From contig NZ_CP021914.1 of assembly GCF_002814095.1 (NCBI RefSeq), positions 248,001 through 312,000 of the forward strand: 64,000 nt of DNA, given 5' to 3'. Shown here one piece after another: positions 1 through 10,686 of this stretch. A program made the position numbers and the translations under genes. A model generated the notes under the pieces. It was not told the origin of the DNA. It saw nothing but the letters and a program-made list of their open reading frames with translations, and did not search any database. The DNA is from Sagittula sp. P11 (lineage in GTDB: Bacteria > Pseudomonadota > Alphaproteobacteria > Rhodobacterales > Rhodobacteraceae). Position 1 is the first letter of the stretch. Each line of letters begins with the position of its first letter.

Positions 1-133
1 GGTTAAATATGTCAACCTTTTGTACCAGATCGTTAAAAGTGGGTGCGGCGATGCGAGATCCACGGGCATTTCCGCGCGCCTTGCCTTGCGGTACACGGGG
101 GCGTTGGCCAAGGATCGAAGGAGAGACGGCACC

Positions 134-1780
134 ATGGGGGATGCACCTTCCCACCCGCGCCCGGGCGAAACGCAACGCGGTGGCTGGAAACAGGATCCCG
201 ATGCCGTGCGCCGCAACATCCTGCAGGTCGCGCGCACCGTCTTTGCCCGGCAGGGCCTGTCGGGCGCGCGGGTCGATGAGATCTCGGCCAGCACGAAGAC
301 GTCGAAGCGGATGATTTACTACTACTTCGGCGACAAGGAGGGGCTCTACCGCGCCGTACTCGAGGACGCCTATGCGCGGATGCGCGACGACGAGGCCGCC
401 CTGGACCTGCGCGCCGTGCATCCCATGACGGCCCTGCGTCAGCTGGCGGAGTTCACCTTCGAGCACCACCGGCAGGACCCGGACTTCGTGCGACTGGTGA
501 TGATCGAGAACATCCACGGCGCCGCGCATATGGACTCGTCCGAGATCCTGGCCGGGCAGAACAGTTCGGCGATCCTGCTGCTCGAGGACATCTACCAACG
601 CGGCTGCGACGCCGGCCTGTTCCGGCGCGGGCTGACGGCGCTCGAGCTGCACTGGCACATCTCGGCTCTGTCCATCTTCAACATCGCCAACCGCGCGACC
701 TTTTCGCGGATCTTCGGCAATGACCTCTTTACCGAGCGTGGCCAGCGCATGCTGTGCCGCCATGTCGGCGACATGATCCTGGGGCTCGTGATGAAGCCCG
801 GACTTTCCGCCGAGTTCGACATGCCAAGACCCAAGGAGGAGGCACGCACGATCAACCCGGGTATTTTCCGATTTCTCGACGTATGGGACAGCAAATGGGC
901 CACGCTCGCACCGGGGGCGACCCCCGCCGAGCGGCGTACGCACTTCGAAAGCATCGCGCGCGACATGCGCCTGCCGACACCCCGCGAGGTCGAGACCGAT
1001 GACGAACACTGGATTGACAGCGACGGCGGTCCGGTGCGGGTGCGGGTCTTTCGTCATGACAGCGGAGGCACGCAGCCTGCACTGATCTACATGCACGGCG
1101 GGGCATGGATGCAAGGCAGCCCGGAAACCCATTGGGACATCACCGCGCGGCTTGCAGCGTGGAACCGGCAGACCGTGATCTCGGTCGACTACGCCCTGGC
1201 GCCGGAGCATCCCTTTCCGGCGGCCTACCTTCAGGTGCTGTCCGTGGCGCGATGGGCCCATGCGGAAGCGAACTCCCTGGGGATCGACCCTGCGCGCATC
1301 GCCATCGGAGGCGACAGCGCGGGCGGCAACCTTGCCGCTGCCGCGGCGCTGGCCTGCCGTGACGAAGGCGTCCCGATCTGCGCCCAGCTTCTGATCTATC
1401 CGGCCTGCGACTTCGACCAGTCCCGCCCCTCTTACGCCGAGAATGCCGAGGGGCCCCTCCTGAAGGTCGCGGGCATGGCGGCGACCCACGCGCTCTACTG
1501 TCCGGACGAGGCAACCTTGCACGGCGATCCGCGCGCAGCGCCTCTGGCGGCCGATAGTCATGCGGGCCTGCCTCCTGCCTTCATCGCTGTGGCACAGAAC
1601 GACCCTCTGCGCGACAGCGGGCTGGCCTATGCCGAGGCGCTGACGGCTGCAGGCGTCGATGTCGAGGTCGACCGCGGAGAGGGGCTGATCCACGGCTATC
1701 TTCGTGCCATGGAATACTGCCCTGACACAGAAACCAGCCTCCGCCGGATGGCTGGCTGGCTGCGCCGGATCACGGGATAA
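134..1780 (+). CDS. TetR-family regulator fused to HSL-type alpha/beta hydrolase
   Basis: A single 548-residue protein. Residues about 20-220 are a TetR regulator: an N-terminal HTH followed by the hallmark IYYYFGDKEGLY, then a ligand-domain-like helical region. From about residue 239 a hormone-sensitive-lipase-type hydrolase begins, with the oxyanion motif HGGAW (321-325), nucleophile Ser395 in GDSAGG, Asp490 in NDPLRD and His520 in LIHGYL, so the catalytic triad looks complete. The ATG at 134 was chosen because GGAGAG lies just upstream; TTG20 has no such site. Fusion of the two families in one chain is unusual. The linker contains AAGGAGGAGG (833-842) five bases before an in-frame ACG, as if two genes had merged. 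Inference: an esterase or lactonase whose substrate or product is sensed by the regulator half, controlling the TRAP binding-protein gene downstream. Confidence 0.85.
   Translation: MGDAPSHPRPGETQRGGWKQDPDAVRRNILQVARTVFARQGLSGARVDEISASTKTSKRMIYYYFGDKEGLYRAVLEDAYARMRDDEAALDLRAVHPMTALRQLAEFTFEHHRQDPDFVRLVMIENIHGAAHMDSSEILAGQNSSAILLLEDIYQRGCDAGLFRRGLTALELHWHISALSIFNIANRATFSRIFGNDLFTERGQRMLCRHVGDMILGLVMKPGLSAEFDMPRPKEEARTINPGIFRFLDVWDSKWATLAPGATPAERRTHFESIARDMRLPTPREVETDDEHWIDSDGGPVRVRVFRHDSGGTQPALIYMHGGAWMQGSPETHWDITARLAAWNRQTVISVDYALAPEHPFPAAYLQVLSVARWAHAEANSLGIDPARIAIGGDSAGGNLAAAAALACRDEGVPICAQLLIYPACDFDQSRPSYAENAEGPLLKVAGMAATHALYCPDEATLHGDPRAAPLAADSHAGLPPAFIAVAQNDPLRDSGLAYAEALTAAGVDVEVDRGEGLIHGYLRAMEYCPDTETSLRRMAGWLRRITG
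833..850 (+). other. Relic ribosome-binding site and start inside the fusion gene
   Basis: AAGGAGGAGG at 833-842 is followed after five bases by ACG ATC AAC CCG, in frame at residue 239, just where hydrolase homology begins. One change (ATG to ACG) would turn a separate hydrolase start into the present read-through. No stop codon separates the halves. This is an inference about origin; weak internal initiation remains possible. Confidence 0.4.
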
Positions 1781-1938: not shown

Positions 1939-2922
1939 ATGCTAAATCTCAATCGTCGGCTCGTCTGTGGTTTCGCCGCTGCGGCCATGGCCCTTTTCCC
2001 TCTTGCCGCCGCAGCGCAGGACGCAAGGGAACTCACCTTCTCGGCGGTGTTCACACAGAACGACATTCGCGCGGAGATGATGGAACAACTGAAGTCCGCG
2101 GTGGCGGATAGCTTCGACCTCCAACTGTACTACGGCGGAACGCTGTTCGCGCAGGGCACGGAGCTTGTCGCCATTCAGCGCGGCAACCTCGACATGAGCA
2201 ACGTTGCGCCGCAGGACATCGCCAAGCAGATCCCCGCGTTCTCGATCCTGACCGCCGCTTACCTGTTCCGCGATGCCGAGCATCTGAGCACCTTCTTTGC
2301 CAGCGAGGCGGGTGCAGAGATGGTGGCGATGGCCGAGGATCAGCTGGGCATCCACATCCTCGGTCCGACCTATTTCGGCACACGTCAGGTGAACCTCCGC
2401 GGCGACAAGGAAATCCGTACGCCCGAGGACATGTCCGGTGTCAAACTACGGATGCCGGGCGGTGACGCATGGCAGTTCCTGGGCGAGGCGCTTGGCGCCA
2501 ACCCGACCCCGATGGCATATTCAGAGGTCTATACCGGCCTTCAGAGCGGCGCGATCGACGGGCAGGACAATCCCTTCCCGAACGTCGAGAACATGAAGTT
2601 CTACGAGGTGACGGACCAGATCGTGCTGACGTCGCATCTTGTGGCCTTCGATTTGCTGGTGATCTCCAGCCGCGTCTGGGACGAAATGACTGAAGAGCAG
2701 CGCACAGCCTTCCAGTCCGCCGCGGACGAGGCGATTGCCTGGAGCACCGAACAGCACCTTGCCCGTGAGGACGAGCTGGCCGCGTTCTTCGAGGGCGAGG
2801 GGCTGAAGATCTACGAGCCCGACCTTGACGCTTTCCGCAGCCATGCGCAGACGAAGTACCTCGAGTCGGACCTTTCGGCAGACTGGCCCGAGGGGATGCT
2901 GGACCGCATCAACGGCCTCTGA
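1939..2922 (+). CDS. dctP: TRAP transporter substrate-binding protein (DctP family), orphan
   Basis: Periplasmic solute receptor of a tripartite ATP-independent transporter, 327 residues, normal for the family. It has a Sec signal peptide (charged LNRR, hydrophobic stretch, AAAAQ around residues 22-27) and the usual DctP core, including GVKLRMPGG, whose Arg normally binds the ligand carboxylate. The ATG at 1939 is preferred over the in-frame ATG at 1927 because GGGAGG lies between them. No dctQ or dctM follows; the nearest membrane pair is on the opposite strand at 7.9-9.6 kb with its own dctP. It may feed that transporter or be a leftover. A candidate operator lies just upstream. Confidence 0.9.
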   Translation: MLNLNRRLVCGFAAAAMALFPLAAAAQDARELTFSAVFTQNDIRAEMMEQLKSAVADSFDLQLYYGGTLFAQGTELVAIQRGNLDMSNVAPQDIAKQIPAFSILTAAYLFRDAEHLSTFFASEAGAEMVAMAEDQLGIHILGPTYFGTRQVNLRGDKEIRTPEDMSGVKLRMPGGDAWQFLGEALGANPTPMAYSEVYTGLQSGAIDGQDNPFPNVENMKFYEVTDQIVLTSHLVAFDLLVISSRVWDEMTEEQRTAFQSAADEAIAWSTEQHLAREDELAAFFEGEGLKIYEPDLDAFRSHAQTKYLESDLSADWPEGMLDRINGL

Positions 2923-3010: not shown

Positions 3011-3451
3011 ATGTCAAAGCCGATCTATATCCTGAACGGCCCGAACCTGAACCGGCTGGGCGTCCGCGAGCCGGAGATCTACGGCCACACTACGCTGGCC
3101 GAGGTCGAGGCGCTTTGCCGAGAGGCCGTGGGTGCCCGACCGCTCGAGTTCCGGCAGACCAACTCCGAAGAGACGATGATCGACTGGATTCACGAAGCCA
3201 CGGACAGAAGCGCGGGGATGATCATCAACCCGGCCGCCTTCACCTTCTACTCGATGGCGATCATGGACGCGCTGAAGATGTTCGGCAAACCGTTGATCGA
3301 GTACCACATTTCGAACATCCACAAGCGCGAACCGATGTATCACAACTCACTGGTGTCGGGCGTCGCGACTGCAGTACTGGCAGGGCTTGGCGCCAAAGGG
3401 TACGTGCACGCCGTCCGCATCCTGATCGAGATGATCGGCGAGGACGCCTGA
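3011..3451 (+). CDS. Divergent type II 3-dehydroquinate dehydratase-like protein
   Basis: 146 residues, the size of AroQ, the dodecameric type II dehydroquinase that dehydrates 3-dehydroquinate. Fold motifs are clear: NGPNLNRLGVREPEIYG (10-25), INPAAFTFYS (72-81), IEYHISNIHKRE (96-107). Arg19, Tyr24, Asn73, Glu97, His99 and Arg106 sit at family positions. However, the conserved substrate His of the GAxTHTS motif is Phe79, the Arg of ExFRxxS is Tyr110, and QxNHEG/QTNFEG reads QTNSEE. These are substrate-contact positions, so a different substrate is likely. The gene follows dctP in a catabolic locus, not in shikimate biosynthesis. The ATG at 3011 was chosen by homology, with GAGGAA 11-16 nt upstream. 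Confidence 0.8.
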   Translation: MSKPIYILNGPNLNRLGVREPEIYGHTTLAEVEALCREAVGARPLEFRQTNSEETMIDWIHEATDRSAGMIINPAAFTFYSMAIMDALKMFGKPLIEYHISNIHKREPMYHNSLVSGVATAVLAGLGAKGYVHAVRILIEMIGEDA

Positions 3452-5281: not shown

Positions 5282-6006
5282 GACGTTTCGAGGATCAGGT
5301 CGCCATCGTAACCGGCGGGGCGCGCGGCATCGGGCTGGGCATCGCCCGCCGGCTGACACAAGAGGGCGCGCAAGTCGTCGTCTGGGACCTGGCCGATGTC
5401 GCGCCGGGCCAATCCGATGCCCCGGCCGCAGAGATGAAGGTGGACGTCACCGATCCGGCCTCGGTCGAAGCCGCGACGGCCGACGTCTTGTCGCGCTTCG
5501 GACGGATCGACGTCTTCGTGAACAACGCGGGCATCAATGGTCCCGTCGCCGATGTCGAGCACTACGACCTGGCCGACTGGAAACGGGTGATCGACATCGA
5601 CCTCACCGCAGTCTTCCTGTGCTGCCGTGCGGTGATCCCGCAGATGAAGGCCCAAGGCTATGGTCGGATCGTCAACATCGCCTCGATCGCTGGCAAGGAG
5701 GGCGTGCCCGGGATCGCCGCCTATGCGTCGGCCAAGGCCGGTGTCATCGGGCTGACCAAGTCGCTGGCCAAGGAACTGATCCGCACCGGGATCCTGGTCA
5801 ATGCCGTGGCCCCGGTGATGGTCGAGACCGATCTCCTTCAGCAGATGACACCCGAGCATGTGACGGCGAGCAAGGCCAAGATCCCTATGGGTCGCCTTTT
5901 GCAGATCGAGGAACTGGCCGCACTTGTCGCCTTCGTCGCCAGCCCGGAGAATTCCTTCACCACCGGCGTGGCTTACGATGCCTCGGGCGGGCGCGGCACC
6001 TACTGA
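5278..6006 (+). CDS. Short-chain dehydrogenase/reductase
   Basis: 242 residues, classical SDR. NAD(P) motif TGGARGIG (12-19), the NNAG motif, a catalytic Ser in NIASIAG, and Tyr149/Lys153 in YASAK. Asp35-like acidic residue after beta-2 (VWDLAD) favours NAD over NADP. It probably oxidises or reduces a hydroxyl of the intermediate handled by the preceding epimerase-like enzyme. The substrate is not identifiable from sequence. The start overlaps the upstream stop; a strong hairpin follows the stop. Confidence 0.87.
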   Translation: MRRFEDQVAIVTGGARGIGLGIARRLTQEGAQVVVWDLADVAPGQSDAPAAEMKVDVTDPASVEAATADVLSRFGRIDVFVNNAGINGPVADVEHYDLADWKRVIDIDLTAVFLCCRAVIPQMKAQGYGRIVNIASIAGKEGVPGIAAYASAKAGVIGLTKSLAKELIRTGILVNAVAPVMVETDLLQQMTPEHVTASKAKIPMGRLLQIEELAALVAFVASPENSFTTGVAYDASGGRGTY

Positions 6007-6021
6007 GGCGCCGTCCGAAAC

Positions 6022-6044
6022 GGGACAGGCTCAGGGCCTGTCCC
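6022..6044. terminator. Hairpin between convergent genes
   Basis: Perfect nine-base arms GGGACAGGC and GCCTGTCCC around a five-base loop. It lies between the SDR stop and the 3' end of the aldo/keto reductase, overlapping the last codons of the latter. There is no clear T run on either strand. Probably a bidirectional transcript end. Confidence 0.45.
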
Positions 6045-6855
6045 AATCCGGGGCCCAGTCGAAATCGCTCTTGCGGTCCTGCCGGTCCAGCGCCGCGATC
6101 TCGGCCATTTCCGCATCGCTCAGCTCGAAGTCGAAGATGTCCAGGTTCGCGCGGATATTCTCGGGCCGGGACGAGCGCGGGATAGCCGCCACGTTGTCCT
6201 GCTGCACCAGCCAGCGCAGGGTCACCTGGGCGGCAGACTTGCCGTGTGCCTCGCCAATACGGGTGATCGTCGGATCCTGGAAGACTTCGCCGCGGGCGAT
6301 GGGCTGGTAGGCCGTCAGCAGCATGTCGCGGCTGCGCGCATCGGCCAGCAGTTTGTCCTGTGCAAGATACGGGTGATACTCGACTTGGTTCACCACAAGG
6401 TCGGCGCCGCAGGTGTCGACCGCCTCGGCCAGCAGCGGGATCGTGAAGTTACTGACCCCGATGCTGCGGGTCCTGCCGCTGTCGCGCATCTCGGCAAAAG
6501 TGGCGAGCGTATCGGCCAAAGGCACTTCGCGCGTCGGCCAGTGCACCAGAAGCAGGTCGACCGCATCCATCTGCAGCCGGTCGAGGCTTTCGGCGACGCT
6601 CTGTCGGATCTGATCGGGCGCCAGCTTGTCGAACCAAACCTTTGTGGTGACGAACAGCTCGTCCCGCGGCACGCCGGAATCGCGAATGGCCTGGCCGACC
6701 TCTGCCTCGTTGCCGTAGCGGGCCGCGGTGTCAATGTGACGATAGCCGTGTTCGATGGCGGTGCGGATGGCCGCGACGCCTGAGTCGCCGGTCAGCTCAA
6801 AGGTGCCCAGGCCCAGGGCCGGAATGCGGATGCCTTTTACGGTCTTGTGGATCAT
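6031..6855 (-). CDS. Aldo/keto reductase
   Basis: 274 residues, the bacterial 2,5-diketo-D-gluconate reductase-like AKR size. The catalytic tetrad is complete: Asp42, Tyr47, Lys72, His105. The NADPH-site region near the C terminus reads IPRSSRPENIRANLDIFDFELS. It is a soluble carbonyl reductase. It is the last gene of the dctPQM-alcohol dehydrogenase operon (11-nt gap), so it probably acts on a keto or aldehyde form of the imported compound. The ATG at 6855 is supported by AAAGGAAA upstream; longer reading lacks homology. Confidence 0.87.
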   Translation of the reverse strand: MIHKTVKGIRIPALGLGTFELTGDSGVAAIRTAIEHGYRHIDTAARYGNEAEVGQAIRDSGVPRDELFVTTKVWFDKLAPDQIRQSVAESLDRLQMDAVDLLLVHWPTREVPLADTLATFAEMRDSGRTRSIGVSNFTIPLLAEAVDTCGADLVVNQVEYHPYLAQDKLLADARSRDMLLTAYQPIARGEVFQDPTITRIGEAHGKSAAQVTLRWLVQQDNVAAIPRSSRPENIRANLDIFDFELSDAEMAEIAALDRQDRKSDFDWAPDWDRP

Positions 6856-7866: not shown

Positions 7867-9144
7867 TCAGTAGAACAGCGACGGCAGGAAGAGGCTGATC
7901 CACGGCACGAAGGTCACCAGCAGCAGCGTCAGGAAGTTGATAAGCAGGAAGGGCAGAGAGGCGCGAACGAGCCGGCCCACAGGCACCTTCGCCACCGCAG
8001 CCCCGACATACAGGCAGTTCCCGACCGGCGGTGTCACCAGCCCTACGCCGAGGTTCACCACCATGATCGCGCCGAACTGCACAGGGTCCACGCCTTGGGC
8101 CACGGCCACGGGCAACAGGATCGGGGCAAAGAGGATCAGCGCCGGGACAAGGTCGACGAACATCCCGATCACCACCAGGAACAGGTTGATCAGGATCAGC
8201 ACCACCCATGGGCTGGCGTCGAGACCGTTGAAGAAGCCGACGAGCGAGTCCGGGAACTGCTCGATGGCCACGACCCAGGCGACGACCGAGGTGGTGGCGA
8301 CCACGAAGAGCGGGATCGCGGTGTTGACCGCCGCTTCGACGACAATGGTGCCGAGCTGGCGAAAGCTGAATTCGCGATAGACGACGCCCGCCAGGAACAG
8401 TGCGTAGACGACCCCGATCACGCCGGCTTCGGTGGCGGTGGTCAGTCCGGTGACGATGGCTCCCAGCAGGAATACCGGAAGAAGCAGCGCCAGGATCGCG
8501 TCCTTGAAAGCGGCCCAGAGTTCGGATGCGGGTGCGCGCCGTTCTGCCTGGGGCCAGCCCTTGCGCTTGGCCATGACGTAGACCGCGACCATGAGTAAAA
8601 GACCGACGAGGATGCCCGGAACCAACCCGGCCAGAAACAGTGCGCCGACAGACGTGCCCACGGTCACGCCGTAGAGGACCATCGGGATCGACGGCGGGAT
8701 CAGAATGCCGATGGTCGACGAGGTGATGGTGATGGCGCCTGCGTCCTCGCGGCTGTAACCCTGCTTCTCCATCGCCGGGATCATCAGGCTGCCCACAGCT
8801 GCGGTATCGGCCACGGCAGAGCCAGACACGCCGCCGAAGAACATCGAGGAGGCGACGTTGACGTGCCCCAGCCCGCCACGGATGTGCCCGACCAGAGCTG
8901 TGGCGAGCCGCACCAGCCGTGCGGCAATCGAGGTTTCTCCCGCAAGTGCACCCGCCAGGATGAACAGTGGCACCGCGACCAGCGGAAACGAATAGACGCC
9001 GTTGACCATTTTGTGGGGGACCTGCGCCATCGGAAAGGTGCCGTCCAGCCAGAAGGCCCCCATCGCCGCTGCGCCGATTGCCATGGCAACGGGCACTCCG
9101 ATCAACAGGAGCACGAAGAAGGCGACGAAGATCGTCAGGATCAT
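7867..9144 (-). CDS. dctM: TRAP transporter large permease (DctM)
   Basis: 425 residues, full length for DctM, the ion-coupled transport subunit in the inner membrane. It starts with MILTIFVAFFVLLLIGVPVAMA, contains FFGGVSGSAVADTAAVGSLMIPAM and IPPSIPMVLYGV, both typical of the family, and ends in a final hydrophobic segment (LLVTFVPWISLFLPSLF). The start overlaps the dctQ stop by ATGA. Together with dctQ and dctP it makes a complete sodium-dependent uptake system, in contrast to the damaged TRAP sets at 30-32 and 60-62 kb. Confidence 0.93.
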   Translation of the reverse strand: MILTIFVAFFVLLLIGVPVAMAIGAAAMGAFWLDGTFPMAQVPHKMVNGVYSFPLVAVPLFILAGALAGETSIAARLVRLATALVGHIRGGLGHVNVASSMFFGGVSGSAVADTAAVGSLMIPAMEKQGYSREDAGAITITSSTIGILIPPSIPMVLYGVTVGTSVGALFLAGLVPGILVGLLLMVAVYVMAKRKGWPQAERRAPASELWAAFKDAILALLLPVFLLGAIVTGLTTATEAGVIGVVYALFLAGVVYREFSFRQLGTIVVEAAVNTAIPLFVVATTSVVAWVVAIEQFPDSLVGFFNGLDASPWVVLILINLFLVVIGMFVDLVPALILFAPILLPVAVAQGVDPVQFGAIMVVNLGVGLVTPPVGNCLYVGAAVAKVPVGRLVRASLPFLLINFLTLLLVTFVPWISLFLPSLFY

Positions 9145-9611
9145 GTTGGTGCTCCTTCACCCGGTCTGCGCAGCAGCCGGAAGAGGTTTTCCACGCTGCA
9201 CACCGCCATGAGCAGGGCGGACAGCGGCATGCAGATGTAGAAGTAGCCGCGCGGGATCTTCAGCGCGTCCGAAAGGCTGTTCATCGCGCTCGACACGATC
9301 TGGTAGCCGTACACGGTCAACGCGCCCAGGAAGGCGAGGACGACCAGTTCCGCCACGATGCGGAAGCTCCACCGCAGCCGTTCGGGCAGAGCGTCGACCA
9401 GCGCGGTAAATGCGATGTGGCGTCGTTCGTAATAGGCCACGACCGAGCCGATGAACACGATCCAGACAAGAATGACGTTCGGCACCTCGGTGGCCCAGTA
9501 CAGCGAGTTGCCGAGGCCGTAGCGCCAGAACACGCCCATCGCCACGCTGATCACCAGCGCGACGATGAGGATGCCGATAAACCAGCGCAGGACTTGGTTT
9601 ATCAAAGCCAC
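9141..9611 (-). CDS. dctQ: TRAP transporter small permease (DctQ)
   Basis: 156 residues with four hydrophobic segments, the usual DctQ topology. The motif between the second and third segments, YYERRHIAFTALVDALPERL, corresponds to the family RRGAHIAVDLL-type pattern. It bridges DctP and DctM in the membrane. It starts one base after the dctP stop and overlaps dctM, so the three subunits are tightly coupled. Confidence 0.9.
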   Translation of the reverse strand: MALINQVLRWFIGILIVALVISVAMGVFWRYGLGNSLYWATEVPNVILVWIVFIGSVVAYYERRHIAFTALVDALPERLRWSFRIVAELVVLAFLGALTVYGYQIVSSAMNSLSDALKIPRGYFYICMPLSALLMAVCSVENLFRLLRRPGEGAPT

Positions 9612-9612
9612 G

Positions 9613-10602
9613 TTACTTGGCCTCTAGAACGGCGTCGATGAGGTCGCGGCCGATTGTGTCTTCGGAGGCGGCATAGGATTCCTCGGCACCGGCGCGGAAC
9701 GACTCCTTGTCGATGTCGCGGACGATGGTGACGCCCGACTCCTCGATCTTGTCGACCAGCGCGGCATTGGCCTCGCGGGCGGCGGCGACCTGGATCAGGC
9801 TTCCGGCCTTGGCGGCCTCCACAACGGTGTCCTTCACGTCATCGGGCAGACTTTCCCAGAACGATCGCGACAGCACGAATTCCGTCGGGATGTTGGCGTG
9901 GCCGGTCAGGCTCATGGTGGACTGAACCTCGTGGAACTTCGACGTCCAGATGTTCTCCGGCGGGTTCTCCTGAGCGCTCACCACACCCTGTTGAAGCGCC
10001 GAATAGACCTCTTCGAAGGGCAGCGGCGTCGGGTTCGCGCCCCAGGCCTTGAAGGCGGTCAGCCATGGCTGGACATTGGGAACGCGGATGTCGAGCCCTT
10101 GCAGGTCGGCGGCAGAGCGAACCTCGGTGCCGTTCGTGGTGATGTAGCGGAAGCCAAGCTCGCCCCACGCCAGCACCTTGAAGCCCTTTTCGTAGAGGAT
10201 GTCGCTGAGCTGCGCCTCGACCGCGCTGTCCGAGTGGAGCACCGCGTCGACATGCGCGTCGTCGCGGTAGATCATCGGCAGGTTCAGCACGTCAAGCCGC
10301 GGGTCGATCTGACCATGACGGCCCATGATAGCTCCGTCCAGGGTGCCCAGCTGCATCGCCTCGAGGTACTCGGTCTCGGTGCCAAGCTGGGCAGCGGGAA
10401 AGACCTTGATGTCGAAGCGGCCCGGGAATTCTTCCTCCAGCACCTCTTCGAACTTGTCGAGCCACAGCGAATAGCTGTGCGTCTGCGGCATGTTGTGGGC
10501 GATGCGCATTGTGATTGTGTCCTGCGCCATGGCGGCACCGGCGCCAAGGCCGATGCTCACCGCCGCCGCGGTCATGGAAATCCTGCAAAGCAAGGCGTTC
10601 AT
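9613..10602 (-). CDS. dctP: TRAP transporter substrate-binding protein (DctP)
   Basis: 329 residues with a Sec signal peptide (residues 1-26, ending AGAAMAQ) and mature start DTITMRIAHNMPQ. The ligand-Arg region reads GLDIRVPNVQPW, and the ANPTPLPFEEVYSALQQGVV segment is characteristic of DctP. It is the first gene of the dctPQM-adh-akr operon. GGGAGGAG precedes the ATG at 10602. The promoter region holds palindrome copy 2, whose half site gives a TTGACA box facing this gene. The ligand is likely a carboxylate, as for most DctP proteins with this Arg. Confidence 0.93.
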   Translation of the reverse strand: MNALLCRISMTAAAVSIGLGAGAAMAQDTITMRIAHNMPQTHSYSLWLDKFEEVLEEEFPGRFDIKVFPAAQLGTETEYLEAMQLGTLDGAIMGRHGQIDPRLDVLNLPMIYRDDAHVDAVLHSDSAVEAQLSDILYEKGFKVLAWGELGFRYITTNGTEVRSAADLQGLDIRVPNVQPWLTAFKAWGANPTPLPFEEVYSALQQGVVSAQENPPENIWTSKFHEVQSTMSLTGHANIPTEFVLSRSFWESLPDDVKDTVVEAAKAGSLIQVAAAREANAALVDKIEESGVTIVRDIDKESFRAGAEESYAASEDTIGRDLIDAVLEAK

Positions 10603-10686
10603 GTTTTCTCCTCCCTGATTTTTCTGCCGCGCCTGCCGGATGTGACACCGGCGCATGGCAGCTGGCTGTCGCCGATACTTGGCAAC

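Follow-up and report, generated by a model that had tools for sequence, protein, structure and literature searches.

Proteins that are both an enzyme and a transcription regulator are known as trigger enzymes, examples being PutA, BirA and NadR. We know of no TetR-esterase among them and, judging from titles and the beginnings of abstracts, recognised no TetR-hydrolase or TetR-enzyme fusion among the papers listed in our literature searches. The gene described here lies at the left end of a 64,000-nucleotide stretch of the Sagittula sp. P11 genome (hereafter the window). By its domain content it belongs to the known regulator-enzyme fusions: like the trigger enzymes, the predicted protein would hold an enzyme and a transcription regulator in one chain, a likeness seen here in the domains alone. 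The original prediction, which spoke of a new kind of control circuit, was overstated in this respect. The hydrolase half matches HSL-type esterases in the PDB (Foldseek; 4ypv E 1.4e-25, TMt 0.91), and it shares fold (TMt 0.91 to 0.93) and catalytic triad with the HSL esterases Est8 (4ypv), EstS1 (9j1e) and EstE1 (2c7b), at 37%, 39% and 35% identity, respectively. These are stand-alone enzymes, whereas the hydrolase of the window is the C-terminal part of a predicted DNA-binding protein. Two-gene relatives at quinate/shikimate genes (e.g., loci L107-L113 and L149) have a TetR homologous to that of the window (51-56% identity) and share with the fused loci a divergent aroE-dctPQM and similar operator-like repeats, but their hydrolase is a separate, usually overlapping gene. 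A further parallel is the plant gibberellin receptor GID1 which, according to PMC3531792, is thought to have descended from HSLs by losing the catalytic histidine and turning into a receptor.

Positions 134-1780 of the window form a single open frame of 548 sense codons with no internal stop. The predicted uninterrupted run from a TetR helix-turn-helix to a complete Ser395-Asp490-His520 hydrolase was borne out, with both domains recognised by Pfam and the triad aligned.

134..1780, + strand: TetR-hydrolase fusion gene, 548 aa (ORF translation, domain matches, fused orthologues)
218..358, + strand: TetR_N helix-turn-helix domain, aa 29-75 (Pfam; core TSKRMIYYYF near-invariant in the 31 fused rows)
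422..778, + strand: TetR_C_29 ligand-binding/dimerisation domain, aa 97-215 (Pfam)
812..841, + strand: low-confidence linker, aa 227-236, pLDDT below 50 (AlphaFold model)
1082..1702, + strand: Abhydrolase_3/HSL-type esterase core, aa 317-523 (Pfam and structure match)
1316..1318, + strand: Ser395 codon, nucleophile within GDSAG (alignment with HSL triad)
1601..1603, + strand: Asp490 codon (alignment with HSL triad)
1691..1693, + strand: His520 codon (alignment with HSL triad)

The Pfam matches are strong for TetR_N (E 6.5e-12, 45.5 bits against a cut-off of 24), for TetR_C_29 (E 1.9e-39, 134.9 bits against 26.2), which is helical in the predicted structure, and for Abhydrolase_3 (E 2.3e-65, above the Pfam cut-off). 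The HSL-type esterase marks, i.e., the HGG oxyanion motif, GDSAG and the triad, are all intact; against the NCBIfam model LipP1 (NF058653), the protein scores 263.9 bits, under the curated cut-off of 350. The folding alignments drew on the window protein and 69 of 86 relative rows. In the AlphaFold model of the fusion, both domains are confident (mean pLDDT 91), and the linker at 227-236 between them coincides with the old junction; with a pTM of 0.61, the relative placement of the domains is not fixed by the model. Across 13 chosen pairs of fused genes, dN/dS is 0.00-0.20 for the TetR half and 0.06-0.23 for the hydrolase half. Judged on these sequence data, both domains are complete and conserved, and a mild relaxation of selection on the TetR half of the window is possible, since its TetR dN/dS tops the 13 pairs (0.199 against L079; 0.126 against L078).

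The original prediction had proposed looking in related genomes for TetR-hydrolase architectures and for close relatives with two separate genes, and both exist. The best 80 of 360 relatives in a scan of named genomes represent 79 distinct loci, of which 27 are fused, 19 have two adjacent genes and one (L139) is a broken fusion; in the rest, the hydrolase is not adjacent to TetR on its strand (21 loci, most with a TetR elsewhere in the locus) or TetR alone is present (11 loci). Because the scan was ranked by likeness to the fused query, the share of fusions in it is no frequency. Among these best 79 loci, fused copies are found in Rhodobacterales, Nisaea and Martelella. A stop-free match across both domains was found in at least 6 of 394 family genomes and at least 2 of 385 class genomes, both lower bounds since no more than three candidates were scored in each genome. 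The 19 two-gene loci and L063 together make up 20 two-gene rows. Of these, 14 have overlapping genes, 5 have genes within 36 nt of each other and 1 has a gap of about 350 nt, which agrees with the earlier proposal that the regulator fused with a neighbouring hydrolase gene; a 4-nt ATGA or GTGA overlap, a type tied to translational coupling, is present in 10 of the 20. In L063 (genome G256), TetR and hydrolase share a frame and only TGA AAC stands before the hydrolase ATG, so that, on its sequence, this locus is one stop codon short of a fusion.

The junction of the window retains the marks of a former gene start, in the order AAGGAGGAGG, five bases (CACGC), ACG and then ATC AAC CCG.

833..842, + strand: relic Shine-Dalgarno AAGGAGGAGG (sequence, pairing energy, comparison with relatives)
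848..850, + strand: ACG (Thr239), site of the hydrolase ATG in relatives (alignment with two-gene and fused relatives)

The view that these are relic start signals held up: the hydrolase starts at the window's ACG codon in 15 of the 20 two-gene rows, and in the other five it starts one codon upstream (L109, L110, L111 and L118; the start codon of L110 is GTG) or one downstream (L149). The alignment indicates that the match between this ACG and the hydrolase start of the relatives exceeds chance. We also compared 31 fused genes, comprising the 27 from the scan, the window, L057, L058 and L062. The codon equivalent to Thr239 is ATG in 18 of them and something else in 13, namely ACG in the window, AAT in L086 and L102, CGG in L087 and L088, AAG in L143 and L092, CAG in L090, GCC in L094-L097 and CTG in L062. 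None of the 15 further in-frame ATGs tested within the gene has a Shine-Dalgarno energy as good as that of the window junction (-11.8). Median energies are -11.2 for the 18 fusions with ATG versus -3.1 for the 13 without (rank test p 0.0067; 29 rows, not corrected for kinship), and 15 of the 18 ATG-retaining fusions have a site of -6.9 or better. Paired contrasts of ATG state against Shine-Dalgarno strength on the tree yielded five pairs only and had no power, and a synonymous-codon test for selection on the internal Shine-Dalgarno beyond the encoded amino acids gave p <0.05 in just 2 of the 18 ATG rows. Many of the ATG-retaining fusions could still yield free esterase. The window itself, where ATG is now ACG, probably no longer does so; as its Shine-Dalgarno is still untouched, the internal start looks to have been lost recently, and L086 likewise combines a strong site (-12.2) with ATG loss.

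Some relatives have lost the regulator instead. The TetR half is decayed or gone in L065, L104 and L139, which are 3 of the 28 rows in the window's group on the hydrolase tree, and their hydrolases keep both ATG and Shine-Dalgarno (-6.9, -10.9 and -11.1, respectively), compatible with a usable internal start. In L139 (Sagittula marina), the TetR half is spread over three frames at 6001-6665, while hydrolase, ATG and Shine-Dalgarno are intact, so that the fusion is dispensable there or the assembly contains errors. L104 (5750-6981) holds a hydrolase with a fusion-like linker and start signals and no detectable TetR; the same MAG also carries an intact fusion, L081.

In a joint tree of 48 rows, built without L058, the long-branched L062, L115 and L155, and rows in which the two halves were not both usable, fused rows form two groups, one of 25 (support 100/100) that includes the window and one of 4 (100/98). 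On the midpoint-rooted hydrolase tree, which omits L058 and L138, it is the nested position of the fused groups among unfused rows that leads us to read the direction as fusion and not fission. The fusions arose once or twice: the freely inferred joint tree needs two changes to the fused state, but a single origin of all fusions is not rejected by the AU test (p 0.177). Across 29 fused rows, at least six changes of the ATG state are needed, and we infer that these were losses. The original prediction had the loss of the stop codon and the mutation of ATG to ACG make the fusion together. The two steps were most likely not one event: 18 of the 31 fused genes still have the ATG, usually with a Shine-Dalgarno, which disfavours a simultaneous loss of stop and ATG, and the change to ACG most likely came after the fusion and not with it. 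An ancestral Met-Thr-Ile start one codon upstream, as in the two-gene loci L109-L111, could in principle have supplied the ACG. A direct change of ATG to ACG is simpler, because 10 of the 12 rows in the window's closest group have ATG at this place and the others ACG and AAT. Taken as a whole, we consider this fusion history highly likely.

One clade of fused genes has lost catalytic residues. In L092-L097 (Martelella, Alloyangia and Salipiger) the catalytic Ser is replaced by Gly, and in L094-L097 the catalytic His by Arg as well. In a survey of 73 rows, made without L058 and L138 and with L072 counted among the 21 hydrolase-apart rows (unlike in the scan), Ser-Asp-His is kept in 22 of 22 scored two-gene, 21 of 21 hydrolase-apart and 24 of 30 fused rows; the loss is confined to these six loci and maps to one change on the tree. 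Within the clade, hydrolase dN/dS is 0.16-0.23 (three pairs), indicating that the domain with the broken triad remains under purifying selection. The fold of L095 is predicted to be intact (mean pLDDT 91), the hydrolase of L097 is still recognised by Pfam (198 bits), and TetR_C_29 is present in L097 as in the window protein. Compared with the window, the six loci are 58.9-61.5% identical in the hydrolase half and 64.7-72.1% in the TetR half; in 19 of the 21 other fused scan loci, it is the hydrolase half that is closer. This half looks catalytically dead, and the clade looks like an esterase becoming a sensor, analogous to GID1. As in that receptor, an HSL-derived domain has lost a catalytic residue, here giving Gly395 and Arg520 in L094-L097. 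There are differences: GID1 lost the His, binds its ligand via Ser and Asp and acts through DELLA/SCF (PMC3531792), whereas the clade lost the Ser (and the His in four loci), is fused to a DNA-binding domain, and would bind a ligand only putatively. The window protein itself, with its triad intact, has not undergone this loss. The flanks fetched for L094-L097 are without aroE, quiC and the TRAP genes of the cassette, while aroE and quiC persist in L092 and L093. At about 3900-5600 in L094-L097, a POT-family transporter stands in place of the quinate/shikimate genes (by Pfam in L095, by DNA match in the other three). Alloyangia mangrovi has, in addition to the apparently dead fusion L097, a hydrolase with intact triad next to TRAP genes (L131).

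Downstream of the fusion, the window encodes the following:

1942..2922, + strand: dctP, TRAP solute-binding protein (annotation of the window)
3011..3451, + strand: aroQ, type II 3-dehydroquinase (annotation of the window)

Neighbours were counted no further than flanks of about 6 kb or the end of the contig. Among the 27 fused loci, aroE lies divergently from TetR in 22 and DctM/DctQ in 19, and quiC is present in the fetched flanks of 15. All 19 two-gene loci have aroE and at least DctP in divergent orientation, and 11 of them have quiC in the fetched flanks. The aroE product is shikimate-dehydrogenase-like, with Pfam Shikimate_dh_N in 8 of 8 such proteins tested and also in L093. The quiC-type protein, checked in L090 and L093, combines AP_endonuc_2 with an HPPD-like domain; QuiC1 and QsuB are described as two-domain dehydroshikimate dehydratases in PMC7442255. 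By gene content, the cassette (aroE, quiC, aroQ and a TRAP importer) is a quinate/shikimate catabolism locus; no paper on it appeared among the matches listed in our literature search. Nine of the 11 TetR-only loci clearly adjoin aroE, so the regulator can do without the hydrolase. Just upstream of window position 1 (L077, 14264-14960) lie deletion relics of aroE and of a dctP, from a cassette present in most relatives: the aroE relic is detectable only for aa 9-91 and 244-291 of 292, and the first dctP relic for residues 265-334, with a signal-like start (by eye) and no Pfam match. The window's cassette keeps dctQ, dctM, a gluconolactonase-like gene, another dctP and a cyclase, and the genome encodes AroE-like proteins (34-38% identity) and a QuiC (67%) elsewhere. 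Given the relics, the pathway encoded at this site is incomplete and would have to rely on these AroE-like and QuiC proteins from elsewhere in the genome. On the minus strand at 7867-10668, the window contains a second complete TRAP transporter, dctP-dctQ-dctM, alongside alcohol dehydrogenase and aldo/keto reductase genes. An esterase that releases quinate or shikimate from acyl esters would be a natural fit to this setting, the ester substrate being guessed from the neighbour genes.

The upstream regions of fused and two-gene loci have TGTWC-N5-GGTTAA-like units in common, which form a candidate operator in the window.

1..36, no strand assigned: candidate operator, GGTTAAATATGTCAAC (1-16) and second unit TGTACCAGATCGTTAA (21-36) (comparison with relatives, shuffle control)

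The first unit, TGTTC-N5-GGTTAA, begins just before the window's left edge, and the second is at 21-36. Six two-gene loci carry a pair of perfect TGTAC-N6-GTTAA units, spaced 31-32 bp apart and frequently with GTCAA between them. An operator-like unit matching at least 9 of 10 positions is found upstream in 44 of 53 loci (27 of 31 fused, 17 of 22 scored two-gene), whereas 100 mononucleotide shuffles gave 0.3 of 53 on average and never more than 3. The matches in L094-L097 are weak (7 or 8 of 10 positions). A single copy of the core pattern GTTAA-N4-GTCAAC is present in the genome to which the window belongs, and since a backwards control pattern occurs equally often, no further target was found by this core pattern.

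The best reading of these data is a one-component regulator-esterase acting on a quinate/shikimate ester. The esterase gene would formerly have followed the TetR gene in the same, probably translationally coupled, operon before the two fused. Bound to the tandem TGTWC-N5-GGTTAA sites, a dimer of the fusion would repress both the fusion gene and the divergent operon, and its esterase half would cleave an imported acyl-quinate or acyl-shikimate. The TetR half may sense the substrate or the product, with repression relieved by a quinate/shikimate compound or its ester, while the attached esterase would turn over the ester, placing sensing and turnover in one polypeptide at a fixed 1:1 ratio. Since the quinate/shikimate cassette is conserved, it is plausible that the esterase acts on the ligand of the regulator. 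That the TetR regulator of a cassette for the uptake and catabolism of quinate/shikimate esters fused with the following esterase gene, and works in this way, is the account we hold to be probable; the functional part of it (sensing, turnover and repression) has a slightly better than even chance of being right.

An assembly or sequencing artefact at the junction, which the original prediction had named as a danger together with relatives in which both parts are always separate, is extremely improbable. One assembly of the window's species was examined and its ACG is a single base away from the ATG of near kin, but ACG leaves the frame unaffected, and 27 of the best 79 loci as well as further genomes show the fused frame again, which rules out a sequencing error or frameshift as the source of the fusion; nor are the relatives always separate. 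A more serious competitor, though in our opinion unlikely, is that stop loss passively joined two cooperating genes whose halves remain independent, with no effect on signalling and with internal starts giving free esterase in many relatives. The ATG kept in 18 of 31 fusions, 15 of them with a Shine-Dalgarno of -6.9 or better, is what such a history would leave, as are the low-confidence linker, the domain orientation that the model does not fix (pTM 0.61), and the hydrolases that have outlived an intact fused TetR in L065, L104 and L139, all with ATG and Shine-Dalgarno. It is harder to reconcile with an ATG state that changed at least six times while frame and both domains were kept, with 25 of the 28 rows in the window's hydrolase-tree group still being fused, or with a hydrolase half that in one clade apparently turned catalytically dead yet stayed conserved; evidence of Shine-Dalgarno selection beyond the amino acids in just 2 of 18 ATG rows also argues against it.

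Another possibility is that the hydrolase domain is itself the ligand-sensing module, with the esterase pocket and not TetR_C as effector site and hydrolysis just resetting the signal. The six fused loci of one clade with Ser395 changed to Gly, four of them also with His520 changed to Arg, fit this idea, as unfused rows keep the triad, and so do the clade's low hydrolase dN/dS in three pairs, the predicted intact fold of L095 and the precedent of GID1 (PMC3531792). Against this, TetR_C_29 is kept in both the window protein and L097, the window protein still has its full triad, aroE loci can be served by TetR without a hydrolase, the dead clade goes back to one event, and four of the six dead loci lie outside the aroE/TRAP setting and have weak operator-like matches. 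We regard a sensing hydrolase domain as unlikely and prefer the regulator-esterase in which the TetR half senses.

More tentatively, and with the odds somewhat against it, the family may represent an enzyme-to-sensor transition caught at several stages, i.e., coupled genes, a fusion with internal start, a fusion only (the window) and a receptor domain with a broken triad. If true, the last stage would be a TetR with an esterase domain, minus Ser and His, as receptor, a bacterial counterpart of the step from HSL to GID1. The relatives provide a tree-ordered series from two coupled genes via a regulator-enzyme fusion to an apparently dead-enzyme regulator, so that the evolution of an enzyme into a sensory domain becomes testable with existing intermediates; the dead-enzyme branch is the part that most deserves experiments. 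Should the target of the esterase be the ligand of its own regulator, the fusion would be a compact self-resetting switch and a possible quinate/shikimate biosensor.
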